Below are positions 3,363 through 38,912 of a stretch of DNA of 38,912 nt, in pieces. The DNA is from a virus. The stretch covers positions 1 through 38,912 of IMG/VR virus record IMGVR_UViG_3300048587_000047; one strand, 5' to 3'. Position 1 is the stretch's first letter. Every line of letters begins with the position of its first letter. The translations under genes and the position numbers were made by a program. The notes beneath the pieces were generated by a model. It was not told the origin of the DNA. It did no database searches and saw only the letters and a list, made by a program, of their open reading frames with translations.

Positions 3363-3588
3363 CGGTGTTCTCCTGCGGCAGGGGGAGGATGATGGCGGGG
3401 CACTGCCCGCCAACTTCATCAATGGCTACGCCGACAATCATTTTGTGCTTTTCGGTCTGCCACGCCTTCAGCATGGCGAGGCAGGCGGCGCGGGCTAGTT
3501 GGCTTGTAGTCACAAACTGGTTATGTCTCAGCGGGGTGATAGCTTCTTTGGCTGCCTCCAGCGCCTCGGGCGGGATGGTGATGTTCAT
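3355..3588 (-). CDS. Small phage protein, unknown function
   Basis: The true start is taken as ATG 3588, which overlaps the upstream stop (ATGA) and has GGTGGAG just before it; an in-frame extension upstream would only be the antisense reading of the neighbouring Ala-rich repeat. The 77-residue product begins MNITIPPEALEAAKEAI and contains a helical middle (SQLARAACLAMLKAWQ) followed by a beta-like end. Many phage early proteins start with such a PPEALEAA segment, but no function is known to me. Confidence 0.6.
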   Translation of the reverse strand: MNITIPPEALEAAKEAITPLRHNQFVTTSQLARAACLAMLKAWQTEKHKMIVGVAIDEVGGQCPAIILPLPQENTDD

Positions 3589-4166
3589 TGTTCTCCACCA
3601 TTGACCACACGCAGAAACTCGGCAGTTTGATCGGTCTTCGCCTCCGCCAACGCCGCCGCCCTCGCCGCCGACTCTGCCTCCCACGCCGCCGCCCTCGCCG
3701 CCGACTCTGCCGCCCACGTCGCCGCCCTCGCCGCCGACTCTGCCGCCCTCGCCGCCGACTCTGCCCCCCTCGCCGCCGACTCTGCCTCCCTCGCCGCCGA
3801 CTCTGCCCCCCACGCCGCCGCCTCTGCCTCCCACGCCGCCGCCCACGCCGCCTCTAATTCGGCGTCACTTGCCTGCCCCCTGGCGTGGCGCTCGGCCACG
3901 TTCAGAGCCGCAATGCTGCGCTCATCCGTCATCAGGTGCTGGACCTGACGGGCACACCACACAGCATACAGCCGCCACTCACGGGCGTGCTGCGGCTCGG
4001 CGCGGCAGCACCACAGGGCGTCATCTAGTCCATTGATTTCGACAATCCGCGCATAGGGCAGCGGTTCGTCATCGGCTGCGGTCTTGCCCAAGCCTTTCAG
4101 CAGTTTTTCCCAGCCGTCTGAACATGGGCCGTGAGTGCGGATGCGGTTGAGGGTTGTGGTTATCAT
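3585..4166 (-). CDS. Imm-5-like protein with Ala-rich heptad repeats, copy A
   Basis: Residues 1-100 form a conserved globular part (MITTTLNRIRTHGPC, IVEINGLDDALWCCRAEP, LYAVWCARQVQHLMTDERSIAALNVAERHA). This resembles domains annotated in databases as Imm-5-like or putative immunity proteins. Residues about 105-177 are a low-complexity helix built on a 7-residue unit of type xAESAAR repeated at least four times in a row, then longer Trp-containing variants. The tail EFLRVVNGGEQ is conserved with a second copy at 11050-11682 in the same operon. Biochemical function is unknown; the immunity label is family nomenclature only. Confidence 0.7.
   Translation of the reverse strand: MITTTLNRIRTHGPCSDGWEKLLKGLGKTAADDEPLPYARIVEINGLDDALWCCRAEPQHAREWRLYAVWCARQVQHLMTDERSIAALNVAERHARGQASDAELEAAWAAAWEAEAAAWGAESAAREAESAARGAESAARAAESAARAATWAAESAARAAAWEAESAARAAALAEAKTDQTAEFLRVVNGGEQ
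3645..3855. repeat. In-frame tandem repeat encoding the Ala-rich helix of copy A
   Basis: The DNA is an imperfect tandem array of GCC/GAC/TCT triplets with a 21-nt core unit (on the + strand, variants of gccgactctgccnccctc), interrupted by longer variants. Because units are multiples of three, gain or loss of a unit keeps the gene in frame. The array keeps several other frames open on both strands, which produces spurious long ORFs. Confidence 0.75.
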
Positions 4167-6059: not shown

Positions 6060-6260
6060 TTACTCCGCCGCCTTCACCAGCTTCGGCTTCGCTACCGAGA
6101 CGACGTTCGGCTGCTGCACAGCCTTGAACGGATTGGCGCTGTGATACTGGACGATCTTGGCGCACTCGACCTTCTCAACCGTGACGCCACCCGGATCCGC
6201 CGTGAGCGGCGAAACGCAGGCCGCGCCGGTCGTGATGATGATGGCGAGGATGTGGTTCAT
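6060..6260 (-). CDS. Small leader-peptide protein (LAIII family copy 3)
   Basis: The 66-residue product has the same plan as 4498-4752: a short hydrophobic leader ending AAC (NHILAIIITTGAACVSP), the near-identical core AKIVQYHSANPFKAVQQPNV, and a short tail KPKLVKAAE instead of the long basic one. ATG 6260 overlaps the preceding stop (ATGA). It is probably targeted to the membrane or periplasm, though the leader lacks the usual N-terminal positive charge. Function unknown; the duplication suggests selection for dosage or variation. Confidence 0.65.
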   Translation of the reverse strand: MNHILAIIITTGAACVSPLTADPGGVTVEKVECAKIVQYHSANPFKAVQQPNVVSVAKPKLVKAAE

Positions 6261-6742
6261 TCGCCGTTGCTGGCCTTGTCGTGCAGGCGCGTGATCGTCG
6301 CCACCGGCTTCGGCGCGGCGATCTCCTTGGCGGCGCGGCGGGCGGCGTCGGACACAAGCCCGATCTCGCGCTGCAGCAGGCGCTTGGTGCTGGCACGCTC
6401 CGGGCTGAGTTGCGTCTCGTTGATGACCGAAACCTTGACGTTTGTGCGGCCCAGCGCGCGGCCTACGCGGTGGAAGGCGGCAATGCCGCTGGACAGGGCT
6501 CCGTCCGGTGTCAGGATCAGGAAGCACTTGCCCTCGGCCTTGACCTCCAGCGCCTTTTCGCGAAACACCCGCTTCCGCCAGGCATTTGTGACCGACATAA
6601 ATCGGCTTTCATCGACGCGCACGCCGGTCAGCTGCTCAACTGTTTCGTACGGTATACGCGCGCCTGCCTCGATGGTGAGGCCCTTCATCAGCCGGTCGAC
6701 TTCCGGTCCTGTCGGCACGCCTCCGAAAAACAACTTGCTCAT
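6257..6742 (-). CDS. Phage protein of unknown function (MSKLFFGG type)
   Basis: ATG 6742 has CAACAGGAGAATAGC upstream; an in-frame ATG ten codons earlier lies before that ribosome site and is not used. The 161-residue product starts MSKLFFGGVPTGPEVDRLM, has an Arg-rich middle (SRFMSVTNAWRKRVFREK) and a hydrophobic strand FLILTPDGAL, and ends in a helical basic tail. I recall uncharacterised phage proteins with this head, possibly DNA-binding, but I know no function. It is separated from its upstream neighbour by the GGCNN repeat spacer. Confidence 0.6.
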   Translation of the reverse strand: MSKLFFGGVPTGPEVDRLMKGLTIEAGARIPYETVEQLTGVRVDESRFMSVTNAWRKRVFREKALEVKAEGKCFLILTPDGALSSGIAAFHRVGRALGRTNVKVSVINETQLSPERASTKRLLQREIGLVSDAARRAAKEIAAPKPVATITRLHDKASNGE

Positions 6743-6766: not shown

Positions 6767-6836
6767 GGCCATACGGCCCCTTGCCTAGCCAAGCCTAGCC
6801 ATGCCGTGCCCAGCCGCGCCTTGCCCGGCCGAGCCA
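6767..6836. repeat. Degenerate GGCNN pentanucleotide array 1 (intergenic)
   Basis: In the spacer between two leftward genes the + strand shows GCC every five bases for about twelve units (ttGCCtaGCCaaGCCtaGCC and on), i.e. GGCNN on the transcribed-RNA-sense minus strand, with the two N positions varying freely. The first 37 bp (6767-6803) are identical to 7598-7634. Five-base periodicity rules out coding. It ends shortly before the CAACAGGAG ribosome site of the 6257-6742 gene. Confidence 0.85.
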
Positions 6837-6839
6837 TAC

Positions 6840-7508
6840 CTAACTCAATCTCTTCACCGCCGCCGTGAACATGCCGAACGTGCCAGGGGTCTTGCTGCTG
6901 GGCCGCCAGTCGCCAAGCCCCTTGTACTTCCCGGCCATCTCCAGAATGTCGCTCAGGACATCGTCCGTGATCTGCTCATCTACAACCAGCAACTCACCAG
7001 AAGCGGACCACTGATCGAAACGGGGGCGCACCCGCACATGCTTCGACTGGCCGATCTTCGCGCGCTTCTTGAACAGCGTGAAACCCATCTTCCGCGCGGC
7101 TTCCTCGTGCTTCGCGAAATCCTTTTCCTTCATCAACCGGTCAAGCTGCGATGTGTCAATGCTCTTACCTGCGCTCATCAATTCCCAGCCGACGGCACGA
7201 GGCATGATCCCGGACTGACTTTGCGCCTTGAACGTCTTGCCGCTCTTGCCGCCGGGCACAAGCACCATCGTCGCTCCTTCCATGAGGCAGCGCATGATGT
7301 TGTCGGTGGGAATAATAATCCGCCCGCTTTCGTCCCGGTACAGGTTGCCGATCCAGCGGAACGCCGGGCTGCGGTCGTCACCGGCCTTCGATGCCTGCTT
7401 GTTGTCAGGATGCAGCTTCCACTTTTCCATGACGTCGGACCAGTCGATATCATCGTGGTGCATCAGCAGCGGCTGAGTACCGGTAATCGTAATGTGATAA
7501 GTCCTCAT
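6840..7508 (-). CDS. Conserved phage protein with RAMP/Cas7-like features, unknown function
   Basis: The 222-residue product starts at ATG 7508 after CAACAGGAGAGAGAA. It opens with a strand-turn typical of RAMP-fold proteins (MRTYHITITGTQPLLMHHD). It continues with a helix IIIPTDNIMRCLMEGA, a basic FKKRAKIGQSKHVRVRPRF segment that could contact RNA or DNA, and ends with a Gly-rich KYKGLGDWRPSS loop followed by a short strand. The order (GT-PLLMH, central helix, C-terminal GxGxW) is reminiscent of Cas7-type proteins, but no CRISPR genes or array are present. I infer a nucleic-acid-binding protein at most. Flanked on both sides by GGCNN repeat arrays. Confidence 0.65.
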   Translation of the reverse strand: MRTYHITITGTQPLLMHHDDIDWSDVMEKWKLHPDNKQASKAGDDRSPAFRWIGNLYRDESGRIIIPTDNIMRCLMEGATMVLVPGGKSGKTFKAQSQSGIMPRAVGWELMSAGKSIDTSQLDRLMKEKDFAKHEEAARKMGFTLFKKRAKIGQSKHVRVRPRFDQWSASGELLVVDEQITDDVLSDILEMAGKYKGLGDWRPSSKTPGTFGMFTAAVKRLS

Positions 7509-7534
7509 TTCTCTCTCCTGTTGTTCATACGAAC

Positions 7535-7749
7535 CCTAGCCGCGCCTTGCCTCGCCCCGCCACGCCCAGCCCAGCCACGTGAATTCCGTTGTAAATTGGC
7601 CATACGGCCCCTTGCCTAGCCAAGCCTAGCCATGACGCGCCAAGCCGTGCCCTGCGACGCCGAGCCCCGTGAAACTCTCTGTGATCGGCTCTACAGCCCC
7701 ATGCCTGGCCCTGCCACGCCCAGCACTGCCCAGCCCAGCCACGCCCGGC
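7535..7749. repeat. Degenerate GGCNN pentanucleotide arrays 2-4 (251-bp intergenic region)
   Basis: The gap 7509-7759 has no convincing gene. It holds three blocks of GCCNN pentamers on the + strand, at about 7535-7579, 7598-7670 and 7694-7749, separated by short unique pieces (around gaattccgttgtaaattg and gtgaaactctctgtgatc). Block 7598-7634 is a perfect 37-bp copy of 6767-6803. A 45-codon frame starting at 7763 overlaps the previous stop but is made of repeat and is not credible. The gene after the array (6840-7508) starts just downstream. Confidence 0.85.
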
Positions 7750-8899: not shown

Positions 8900-9330
8900 G
8901 CGGCCTCCTGGGATTGGCTCGGATCAATGCCGGTCTGAGCGGCAATGTAGGCAAAAACCTTCTCCACCACGTCGCGGAATTCCTTTTTCGGCAGCGCGCG
9001 CCGCGCCATGCTCCGAGCCGTGAAGATCGTCACCACGTCGCCGCGAACGGTGGCGATGCAGTATTGATTTTGCATCTTGAACGCATTGGCTACGGCAGGC
9101 GCTGCGGCCTTCGATCCAACTGCCACGGTCATCGCATCGCAGTAGCCAATGGCAATGAGCACATGCTTCCGCATTATTTCCGCATTCGGCCAGCGATCAC
9201 GGAACTCGTCGCGGAGATTGGCGTGAACGTCGCGGAGCGTGGCGAAGAACATCCGGCGCATATTGTCCGCGCTCATGTAATCGCCGCTGATTTCCTCGCC
9301 GCAATTCGGGCACTGAATGGGCTTGCTCAT
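8896..9330 (-). CDS. Phage protein with N-terminal CPNCG knuckle, unknown
   Basis: The 144-residue product begins MSKPIQCPNCGEEISGDYM: a single CxxC (C7, C10) that may be half of a zinc site, perhaps completed by C84/H76-region residues or by dimerisation. The rest is mostly helical (ADNMRRMFFATLRDVHANL), then a beta segment (QYCIATVRGDVVTIFTA). ATG 9330 overlaps the annealing-protein stop by 4 nt. Placement next to the Bet/RecT-type gene suggests a link to recombination, not demonstrated by motif. Confidence 0.55.
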   Translation of the reverse strand: MSKPIQCPNCGEEISGDYMSADNMRRMFFATLRDVHANLRDEFRDRWPNAEIMRKHVLIAIGYCDAMTVAVGSKAAAPAVANAFKMQNQYCIATVRGDVVTIFTARSMARRALPKKEFRDVVEKVFAYIAAQTGIDPSQSQEAA

Positions 9331-10250
9331 GCGGACGCCTCATTCTCGATCCGCTCAATCTCTTTTTTCAGCGCCAGCGCATCCGTCTTGTTTCGCGCCC
9401 AGAATTCCTGAAGCGGTATCTTGTTCATGTTCCGCCATTGCAACACTTCGTGAGGCTTCATCGTGCGAAACCGGTCAAGGATCATGTCGGTGGCCTTGCC
9501 AAGCGGAATGCGCTCCAACCCGTCACCCATGTCAAAAAGAATGGCCTCAGCGCCGCCAATCATCGCAAGCCGCGCCTCAACATTGGCTTGTTCCGCAATT
9601 TCGGTTGCGGTCAGGTCAATAGTCTTCGCCCGGTCAATTTCTTCGTCAGAGTAAATGGCGCTCAAATCTTCCGGCCATGCGCGTCGGATGGCTTGGGCCT
9701 CGGCGCATTTGGACAACATCACGCGCGGCATCTTGCGCCAGTTGTCCTTGTTAGGGTCCAGTTGCATCGTCCCGTCTTTGCGGAACTGGCGGCGTCCGTC
9801 TTCGCCGCTTACCCATTTGCCGCCTTCCACAATGGGCGCAAATTCGTCCCAGTATGCGACTGCCGTCACCTCATGCCATGCGCCGTGCGAGTGCTGGAAA
9901 ACGGACACTTCCGCTGACACAAGTCCAAGCGGGTTCGTAGCATCGTTCGCAATCGACGGATCATAAGTGAACCGTGGCGCGCGAGTGTCTGGCCTGTATT
10001 CTCCGCTCCGCTTGGCAACAGACCGGAAACCGTCAATGCCGATCACAATCGACATGCGCCGCCGATCCGGTTTGTCCTTATTGAACACAAATGCGTAGAT
10101 TTGCTTCCGTAGCGGGTCCAAGCCAAGCTGCGCGGAAACATGCAAGAACTGGTCAAACTCCACCGAGTTGCAGTCAGGGTTCATGCGCTGGATCAACTGA
10201 ATCTGCGCGGGACGGAATGCATCCGTCAATGCAACAACATTGCTCATCAT
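9327..10250 (-). CDS. Phage recombination protein Bet/RecT-type single-strand annealing protein
   Basis: Anneals complementary single strands during phage recombination and replication. The 307-residue product shows the family layout: an N-terminal helix region (AQIQLIQRMNPDCNSVEFDQ), the strongly conserved GLDPLRKQIYAFVFNKD, IVIGIDGFRSVAKRSGEY, EVTAVAYWDEF, then MPRVMLSKCAEAQAIRRAWP and ATEIAEQANV. A lysine/glutamate-rich C-terminal helix follows. ATG 10250 overlaps the upstream stop (TGATG); a TTG one codon earlier is unlikely. The usual exonuclease partner is not seen; the HNH and Gp157-like neighbours complete the local set. Confidence 0.9.
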   Translation of the reverse strand: MMSNVVALTDAFRPAQIQLIQRMNPDCNSVEFDQFLHVSAQLGLDPLRKQIYAFVFNKDKPDRRRMSIVIGIDGFRSVAKRSGEYRPDTRAPRFTYDPSIANDATNPLGLVSAEVSVFQHSHGAWHEVTAVAYWDEFAPIVEGGKWVSGEDGRRQFRKDGTMQLDPNKDNWRKMPRVMLSKCAEAQAIRRAWPEDLSAIYSDEEIDRAKTIDLTATEIAEQANVEARLAMIGGAEAILFDMGDGLERIPLGKATDMILDRFRTMKPHEVLQWRNMNKIPLQEFWARNKTDALALKKEIERIENEASA

Positions 10251-10756
10251 CAAACCCTTATCGCTATGGTTTCGCCGCCGTTGCTCATCATCGCCCCAGG
10301 AACCTCGCGGCCCGCCTTGAGCGCATCGCCAACGGCCTTCTTGTCGAGATTGGGATCAACGGGCTTCCAGAATTCTGCTGGGATGGCAGCCTCATCCAAT
10401 ATCAGTACGGAAGGCGGAACAGGCTTGCGCGTGATGGTCCCGGCAGGCGTTTCAACTGTCTTGATTTCGCCGGATGCCATCGCGGCAAGAATGGCAACGC
10501 GCCGCATTGCAATGCGTTTTTCAATGCGGGCGCGCCGCGCAGATAGCCGCTTGATCAGTTCTGACAGGCCATCCACAAGCCCGGCATCGGAAACATTGTG
10601 TTCTGCGGCAATACAGATCAGGCCGCGAAGATCAATCTCGCCTTCCAGAGTGTCGCGGATCACGTCCACGTCATCGCCTGCGATTTTGCGCAACTGCTCT
10701 TTCAGAACATCTGCGGCTTGTATGGCTGTGTGCAGCCTGTAATCGATATCGCTCAT
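10250..10756 (-). CDS. Siphovirus Gp157-like protein
   Basis: ATG 10756 follows AAGGAGGCAACA, the best ribosome site of the operon. The 168-residue product has a coiled-coil N-terminal half (RLHTAIQAADVLKEQLRKIA, LIKRLSARRARIEKRIAMRR) and the diagnostic C-terminal block IKTVETPAGTITRKPVPPSV, LILDEAAIPAEFW, NLDKKAVGDALKAGREVPGA. These match the Gp157 family known from Streptococcus phage Sfi21-type genomes, usually next to annealing proteins. Members have been linked to phage resistance, but the mechanism is unclear. It is translated ahead of the annealing protein. Confidence 0.85.
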   Translation of the reverse strand: MSDIDYRLHTAIQAADVLKEQLRKIAGDDVDVIRDTLEGEIDLRGLICIAAEHNVSDAGLVDGLSELIKRLSARRARIEKRIAMRRVAILAAMASGEIKTVETPAGTITRKPVPPSVLILDEAAIPAEFWKPVDPNLDKKAVGDALKAGREVPGAMMSNGGETIAIRV

Positions 10757-10868: not shown

Positions 10869-11053
10869 GCGTCGTCGCCTTCTTGATCGTCACACCTGGG
10901 CGTGGGCATGTGCTTGGGCGGCTCGTAGCCCGTGCCATGACACCGCTGGCATTCTTCCCAGCTTGGGCGGTCGCTGGGGTTTACGAGTGACTGCGCCCAG
11001 ATTTGGCCGTTGCCCTCACAATCGCGGCAGAGCATCGCGTGGCGGGCGGTCAT
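10865..11053 (-). CDS. DnaJ-type zinc-finger mini-protein
   Basis: The 62-residue product has two CxxCxGxG knuckles (C9-C12 in CRDCEGNG and C35-C38 in CQRCHGTG), the arrangement of the DnaJ cysteine-rich domain, with a 22-residue spacer. It has no J domain. Small proteins of this type are frequent in phage early operons and may bind zinc and nucleic acid or protein partners. ATG 11053 overlaps the preceding stop by 4 nt. Confidence 0.65.
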   Translation of the reverse strand: MTARHAMLCRDCEGNGQIWAQSLVNPSDRPSWEECQRCHGTGYEPPKHMPTPRCDDQEGDDA

Positions 11054-11682
11054 GGCCGTGCCTCCGTCTCAGTGACAACACGCAGGAACTCAAATTTTTG
11101 AGTGTCCCTTGCGGCTTCCGGTGCGGCGGCCCTTGCGGCGGCCCTTGCGGCGGCCCTTGCGGCGGCCCTTGCGGCGGCCCATGCGGCTTCCGGTGCGGCG
11201 TCCCTTGCGGCGGCCCTTGCGGCTTCCGGTGCGGCGTCCCTTGCGGCGGCCCTTGCGGCTTCCGGTGCGGCGTCCCTTGCGGCGGCCCATGCGGCGGCCC
11301 ATGCGGCTTCCGGTGCGGCGTCCCTTGCGGCGGCCCATGCGGCGGCCCTTGCGGCGGCCCTTGCGGCGGCAAACTCTTCCTTAGGCGCATCGCCCCGCGC
11401 ATACCGCTCCGCAACATCCAGCGCAGCGATAGAGCGCGGGTCCGTCATCAGGTGCCGCACTTGACGGGCGCAAAACACCGCAAATAGCCGCCACTCGCGG
11501 GCGTATTGAGGTTCAGCACGGCAGCACCACAATGCATCATACAGCCCGTTGATTTCGACGATGCGAGAAAATGGCAACGGCTCATCGTCGGGAGCGGTCT
11601 TGCCAAGTCCGGCCAGCAGCTTGCGCCATCCATCCTCGCAAGGGCTATGCGCACGGATGCGGTTGAGGGTTGTGGTAATCAT
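11050..11682 (-). CDS. Imm-5-like protein with Ala-rich tandem repeats, copy B
   Basis: Residues 1-100 are a close paralogue of the protein at 3585-4166 (MITTTLNRIRAHSPCEDGW, EINGLYDALWCCRAEPQYAREW, CARQVRHLMTDPRSIAALDV). The C-terminal end (EFLRVVTETEARP) also matches. Between them, about 104-192, is a different Ala-rich repeat built from AAAR and a 12-residue unit of type RDAAPEAARAAA. The product is 210 residues. The repeat should be a long helix. Family label immunity-like is by resemblance only; the role in the phage is unknown. Confidence 0.7.
   Translation of the reverse strand: MITTTLNRIRAHSPCEDGWRKLLAGLGKTAPDDEPLPFSRIVEINGLYDALWCCRAEPQYAREWRLFAVFCARQVRHLMTDPRSIAALDVAERYARGDAPKEEFAAARAAARAAAWAAARDAAPEAAWAAAWAAARDAAPEAARAAARDAAPEAARAAARDAAPEAAWAAARAAARAAARAAARAAAPEAARDTQKFEFLRVVTETEARP
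11118..11372. repeat. In-frame tandem repeat encoding the Ala-rich helix of copy B
   Basis: The + strand is an array of gcggcccttgcg 12-mers alternating with ggcttccggtgcggcgtccc-type 20+ nt segments, forming about four 36-nt higher-order units and runs of the 12-mer. All units are multiples of three. The unit sequence differs from that in copy A, so the two repeats expanded independently within related genes. Confidence 0.85.
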
Positions 11683-12002: not shown

Positions 12003-12317
12003 TCAAATTTTTTTGGGTGGTTTCATCGTCCGAATTGTCGTCAAAAATGACTGTTTCAAAATGGCCGCCACATCGGATGGAAGCTCGCGCAACTCCGCAT
12101 CAACCGATTCATTCTCATCTGGTGTTCCGAGAAGCTGGGCTAGGGAAATATCAAAAAATCGCGCTAAAATAGAGAGGTTCTCAAGGCTTGGCGTTGTTGT
12201 TCCCCGCTCCCATTGCTGAACGGCGGCCCTGGTGACGCCTACGATATCGCCTAGTTCCGCTTGGCTCATACGCTTGGCTGAGCGCAATTCCTTGATCTTC
12301 TGAGCAAATCTTGACAT
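12003..12317 (-). CDS. CI-like repressor (XRE-family HTH)
   Basis: The 104-residue product has an N-terminal XRE helix-turn-helix (KIKELRSAKRMSQAELGDIV, then GVTRAAVQQWERGTTTPSLE as recognition part) ending LSILARFFDISLAQLLG. The C-terminal 35 residues (DAELRELPSDVAAILKQSFL) are too short for an S24 autocleavage domain, so induction by RecA-stimulated cleavage is unlikely; dimerisation by the short tail or an antirepressor is more plausible. ATG 12317 follows AAGGGGCC. It is divergent from the Cro/YdaS-like gene, the usual layout of a lysogeny switch. Confidence 0.85.
   Translation of the reverse strand: MSRFAQKIKELRSAKRMSQAELGDIVGVTRAAVQQWERGTTTPSLENLSILARFFDISLAQLLGTPDENESVDAELRELPSDVAAILKQSFLTTIRTMKPPKKI

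Positions 12318-37046: not shown

Positions 37047-38912
<1,866 letters not shown>

Follow-up and report, generated by a model that had tools for sequence, protein, structure and literature searches.

The stretch of viral DNA analysed here (IMG/VR record IMGVR_UViG_3300048587_000047, positions 1 to 38,912; hereafter the window) carries a divergent member of the recently described VIPR systems. We estimate at about 93% the probability that the locus is a phage-borne VIPR system whose four pentanucleotide arrays are vrRNA guides. The assignment draws on the array statistics, the homology and fold of the Vipr protein, its genetic linkage with the arrays, the hairpins at the array tails, and the hypervariability of two bases per repeat unit between two sister loci.

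VIPR, made known in a bioRxiv preprint (April–June 2026), is a CRISPR-like RNA-guided DNA silencing system, thought to serve phages against rival phages (PMC13142463). Its parts are the phage RAMP protein Vipr and vrRNAs of 9–16 YNNGG repeats, in which GGY is constant, NN is hypervariable and the 3' tail is structured. Recognition of double-stranded DNA is by the NN pairs, with one base skipped from each pair to the next, and binding silences transcription (PMC13142463). Seven types have been published, encoded mostly by viruses or proviruses, and satellites and prophages make up most of the natural targets (PMC13142463). The experiments were done with SUSP1 and P. fulva and cover few clades; the SUSP1 vrRNAs were detected by small-RNA sequencing and Vipr pull-down (PMC13142463). 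The VIPR principle is known, and what is added here is a lineage, short tails, an interposed vrRNA and a sister-locus comparison.

The window belongs to a virus record with terminase, portal, capsid, tape measure and tail genes, the terminase having relatives in several genera. The leftward early operon encodes Gam-like, RecT-like (9327–10253) and weakly NinB-like proteins and an HNH endonuclease, followed by the vrRNAs and vipr. A repressor-like gene at 12003–12317 suggests a temperate phage, and we consider this life style probable.

Four arrays with GGC at a 5-nt period were found on the minus strand around the gene at 6840–7508, with 9, 11, 8 and 12 units (A, B, C and D, respectively). On the plus strand they appear, in the order D, C, B and A, as GCC runs at 6783–6835, 7539–7576, 7614–7666 and 7703–7745. 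No further period-5 GGC or GCC run of at least five was present on either strand of the whole 38.9 kb window. Each block had 6–10 GCC pairs at 5-nt distance, compared with means of 0.3–0.7 and maxima of 3–5 in 2000 dinucleotide-preserving shuffles, so that each array lay beyond all 2000. The autocorrelation of the upstream spacer peaked at lags 5, 10 and 15 only, with values of 0.45–0.49 versus 0.21–0.30 at the remaining lags to 14. In the unit consensus (n = 40), positions 1–3 were G in 38, G in 39 and C in 39 units, and positions 4 and 5 used all four bases. The initial annotation, which had described four blocks of GGC every five bases in the RNA sense with the other two bases free, was borne out by these unit counts and shuffles. 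It was also right in taking the arrays to be non-coding and to flank a RAMP-like gene.

The arrays differ in length and in their variable letters. Array A (7687–7745, minus strand) has nine units at 7745–7701, one of them with TGC in place of GGC, and its NN letters read 5'–3' GT TG TG AG TG GT AG CA AT; a possible tenth, degenerate unit (TGC-CG) stands in front. Array B (7598–7666, minus strand) has 11 units at 7666–7612 with the letters TC GT AG AC TT GC AT TA TT TA AA. The eight units of array C (7523–7576, minus strand; units 7576–7537) read TG TG GT GG GA AA GC TA, and its end lies immediately ahead of the vipr ribosome site CAACAGGAG. Array D (6767–6840, minus strand) has 12 units at 6840–6781, the first being GGT, with the letters AT TC CG AA GC TG AC AT TA TT TA AA. 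Its first base coincides with the final base of the vipr stop codon (6840). The extents given earlier needed correction here, since the downstream array reaches 6840 and overlaps that stop codon.

The 37-bp block reported as shared between 6767–6803 and 7598–7634 is real, and spans the terminal repeats of B and D together with the tail common to both. In register, 16 of the 22 NN letters of B and D agree (permutation p 0.002), which makes them paralogues within the window. The ribosome site CAACAGGAG, said to be common to three genes, was present at three places on the minus strand (7523–7515, 6757–6749 and 6053–6045). Scanning the window for Rfam families and tRNAs gave nothing, and promoters and terminators were predicted near the arrays no more often than by chance.

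Every array closes with GG and a hairpin of 4 bp whose loop is GTAK, a feature missed in the initial annotation. All four tails lie on the minus strand: A at 7700–7687 (GG-GGCT-GTAG-AGCC), B at 7611–7598 (GG-GGCC-GTAT-GGCC), C at 7536–7523 (GG-GTTC-GTAT-GAAC) and D at 6780–6767 (GG-GGCC-GTAT-GGCC). With the sister array included, three of the four stem pairs changed on both sides and all cells were paired, while in a slid control, with the partner shifted by one to three columns, stem pairing was at most 50%. These compensatory changes, from three distinct stems, are modest evidence for a structured tail. In predicted folds of the four arrays the tail hairpin was the only common structure, and it was part of the minimum-energy fold in only two. 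Among 192 arrays from IMG/VR loci, whose ends are not easily located by rule and whose tails vary by clade, tail folding was mildly stronger than in shuffled sequence (mean −7.2 versus −5.8 kcal/mol, lower in 65%).

A stem-loop resembling the T-arm of tRNA, e.g., CCGGGTTCGAGTCCCGG, was present in many vrRNA tails, those of the actinophages LittleE, Trine and prophiBWHA-1 among them. Such tails were seen downstream of the GGY arrays of loci L020, L024, L031, L033, L037, L040, L044–L046, L049–L052 and L055. The stem-loop could mark a tRNA-like 3' end or a processing signal; the main text of PMC13142463 makes no mention of tRNA.

The gene framed by the arrays (vipr, 6840–7508, minus strand) encodes a 222-aa RAMP/Cas7-like protein homologous to SUSP1 Vipr. 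It matched phrog_4652 (E 6e-29), which is without function in PHROGs, and had no Pfam match. Identity to SUSP1 Vipr was 27% over the full length (E 9e-19). With the window protein alone, phmmer retrieved PDB entry 36pp (8e-13), and a profile of 53 family members retrieved exactly one solved chain, again 36pp, 'SUSP1 Vipr protein' (E 6e-68). The window protein as modelled by AlphaFold (mean pLDDT 77) resembled Csm3/Cas7 backbone subunits, with a best Foldseek E of 7e-6 and, by VIA-align, a Z of 11.5 and an rmsd of 4.0 over 161 aligned residues. Homology and fold together confirm the label 'RAMP-like' given to this gene earlier.

The minus-strand gene following array D (6257–6742, 161 aa) occupies the vap position and is a candidate vipr-accessory gene. 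Its product had a weak collinear similarity to SUSP1 Vap1 (E 0.012), and hhalign gave a P of 0.0043 but a probability of 8%. The AlphaFold model (pLDDT 38) was too poor for a structure search. That the gene is a Vap is only possible.

We compared the window with a sister locus, L001 (IMG/VR record IMGVR_UViG_3300006805_000745), which has the same four-array layout, a Vipr 94% identical and a next gene 99% identical to those of the window. The regions were 90.6% identical over 2 kb, and the GGC frames and all tails were kept. The NN letters of A were identical (18/18), whereas those of B, C and D agreed in only 6 of 22, 6 of 16 and 8 of 20 positions. Agreement in these three arrays is not far from the one in four expected by chance, and thus appears near random. 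With GGC and tails kept, change is concentrated in those letters that the VIPR model calls code. We accordingly read GGC as the scaffold and NN as the programmable code, as the sister comparison indicates. Within each phage, guides B and D had their 3' repeats in common, and these repeats differed between the two phages (window 7598–7634 and 6767–6803; L001 array B from 2839 and D from 3669), the sharing being significant for the window pair only. It looks as if the two guides had been duplicated or converted together.

On the VIPR model, and by analogy with the SUSP1 and P. fulva experiments (PMC13142463), the leftward early operon would be transcribed through vrRNAs A, B and C, vipr, and then vrRNA D. 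Each vrRNA would comprise 8–12 GGY-NN units and a 3' hairpin cap. Vipr subunits, as RAMP proteins related to Cas7 and Csm3, would coat the vrRNA into an RNP, hold GGY as scaffold and display the NN dinucleotides. The NN pairs would read double-stranded DNA under the 1-nt skip rule, giving 16–24 bases per guide, and binding would repress genes of a rival phage or prophage in the same host by silencing their transcription. An earlier proposal that the arrays are a track bound by protein or RNA holds in spirit, as they fit a track bound by the RAMP-like protein; the two free positions, regarded there as varying freely, correspond to the VIPR guide code and are not filler.

We searched for targets with exact NNx patterns (1-nt skip), taking A, C, D and L001 D singly and B only as merged with D. 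The 18 bases of vrRNA A matched IMG/VR once, in L010, a contig of 48% GC, with the skip base off the wobble position. The 16 bases of vrRNA C had three matches, namely one integrase gene in two contigs and one DNA methylase-like gene. We took the matches of A and C as chance, since the contigs had 44–48% GC versus 62% in the window and no skip fell at the main-frame wobble. Neither vrRNA D (22 bases) nor L001 D (18 bases) nor a merged B/D pattern matched IMG/VR, and vrRNA D was without a match in the genome contigs. A positive control, SUSP1 vrRNA1 (20 bases), had no match in IMG/VR either, so exact IMG/VR scans are a weak target finder and the null result carries little weight. Within the window genome itself, no 1-nt-skip match exceeded 15/24, as expected if guides avoid self. 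Skip lengths of 0, 1, 2 and 4, applied to 169 vrRNAs against the gathered loci, gave no clear excess once seeded matches were set aside. One vrRNA of L085 (2939) agreed under the 1-nt skip rule in 19 of 22 letters with a site in the related locus L084 (257). This might reflect VIPR-against-VIPR targeting, and is only a lead, about 0.4 such matches being expected by chance on our own estimate.

The absence of a target from these scans, and the loss of a consensus base in three units of A and B (TGC, CGC and GTC), would also suit arrays that are decayed or inert copies in a VIPR locus that has lost its working guides. We consider such decay quite unlikely, because 37 of the 40 units are intact, the tails are intact and covarying, and the sister loci have kept GGC and tails while the NN letters changed, which argues for selection.

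The arrays are a companion of Vipr well beyond this pair of loci. GGY arrays adjoined the Vipr homologues in all seven annotated phages examined (SUSP1, wV8, LESphi2, LittleE, Trine, prophiBWHA-1 and MakoManhole), and were also found beside Vipr homologues in three plasmids of Azospirillum and Bradyrhizobium. In IMG/VR we examined 80 Vipr loci, counting as an array at least one run of at least six GGY units. Arrays were found on the vipr strand in 75 of the 80, on the opposite strand in none, and in dinucleotide shuffles in none (0/80 each). The loci were chosen by Vipr protein motifs alone; as the arrays played no part in the choice, the association of array and vipr is independent of it. The pattern stood both against shuffles and in the spacers of related phages, the two comparisons named beforehand as able to overturn it.

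This association bears on two further explanations, both raised in the initial annotation. One is that the operon's own RecT-like annealing protein (9327–10253) uses the arrays as substrates in recombination or replication. The protein is encoded upstream of them, and the 37 bp common to B and D imply duplication or conversion at least once. We regard this as very improbable, as the arrays follow vipr in diverse phages (seven annotated phages, three plasmids, 75 of 80 IMG/VR loci) and are confined to the vipr strand, a restriction not required of a DNA recombination signal. That they are 5' leaders controlling translation of vipr and the downstream gene, through structure or altered ribosome loading, can practically be dismissed: C and D do end just ahead of the ribosome sites CAACAGGAG that serve vipr and the 6257–6742 gene, but no gene starts directly after A and B, the four predicted folds share no structure beyond the tail hairpin, and arrays accompany vipr in phages of many kinds, also lying downstream of genes. 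A side role of the arrays in cis regulation is possible.

The three plasmids (L016, L017 and L018) are large. In the two from Bradyrhizobium, metallophosphoesterase and AAA ATPase genes follow the Vipr homologue and GGY arrays, perhaps an arrangement of the defence type.

Among known systems, the locus most invites comparison with the VIPR of Escherichia phage SUSP1. Both have a phage-encoded Vipr RAMP, four vrRNAs around its gene, GGY-NN pentamers, a structured 3' tail and a small gene adjoining vipr. The window Vipr is 27 aa longer and only 27% identical, and its units are almost always GGC, while those of SUSP1 are mostly GGT. Three arrays lie upstream of vipr and one downstream, compared with one upstream and three downstream in SUSP1 (PMC13142463), and, unlike in SUSP1, a vrRNA stands between vipr and the gene that follows. 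The tail is a short 4-bp hairpin, with no pseudoknot seen, again unlike SUSP1. Array C, with eight units, falls one below the published range of 9–16, within which A (9), B (11) and D (12) lie. As far as can be read from the DNA, the anatomy of the window fits VIPR on every point except the identity of the accessory gene and the eight units of array C.

With the Csm3/Cas7 subunits of class 1 CRISPR-Cas (types III and VII) the protein shares the RAMP fold and, by analogy, would share an RNA-coating role. Unlike in class 1 CRISPR-Cas, a guide under the VIPR model is read in NN pairs and not as a contiguous stretch. Repeat scans of the window detected no CRISPR repeat-spacer array, and no cas genes lie beside vipr; the only Cas9 matches (E 0.008) were to the HNH endonuclease gene.

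When 62 Viprs were placed in a tree, those of the window and of L001 paired with each other, and a very long branch set the two apart, outside the other 60. The sample was drawn with motifs of SUSP1-like and actinophage-like Viprs, and the long branch therefore indicates distance, not a new type. No close Vipr relative was found in 84,980 genomes. The pair might represent an undescribed VIPR lineage in which Vipr is larger and branches deeply, the tail is minimal at 4 bp, and a vrRNA lies between vipr and the gene of an unrelated accessory protein; B and D would be paralogous guides, kept as a pair and tracking variants of one rival gene. We hold this combination to be rather doubtful. When their reverse strands are translated with each skipped base as the wobble base, B and D give alignable peptides such as LYNYIVQALRE and LYNYIANVLTE.

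The code by which VIPR guide RNAs read DNA is gapped, and the system may predate CRISPR. The locus described here is a distant relative of the VIPR clades studied by experiment and offers four readable guides. Its pairing with L001, in which mainly code letters have changed, is a natural test of guide re-programming and of the constancy of the code across the family. The scan also yields a simple way to detect such systems, namely by a RAMP gene with GGY recurring at 5-nt intervals on its strand.

Elsewhere in the window, two paralogous proteins (phrog_18326) are encoded on the minus strand at 3585–4166 and 11050–11682, both genes having long tandem repeats, with 33-bp units at 3644–3852 and 36-bp units at 11106–11370. 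At the right end of the record (37323–38882) there were period-9 repeats with units such as ACAGGCCCT and GGCGCAACG, which look like collagen-type Gly-X-Y coding sequence.
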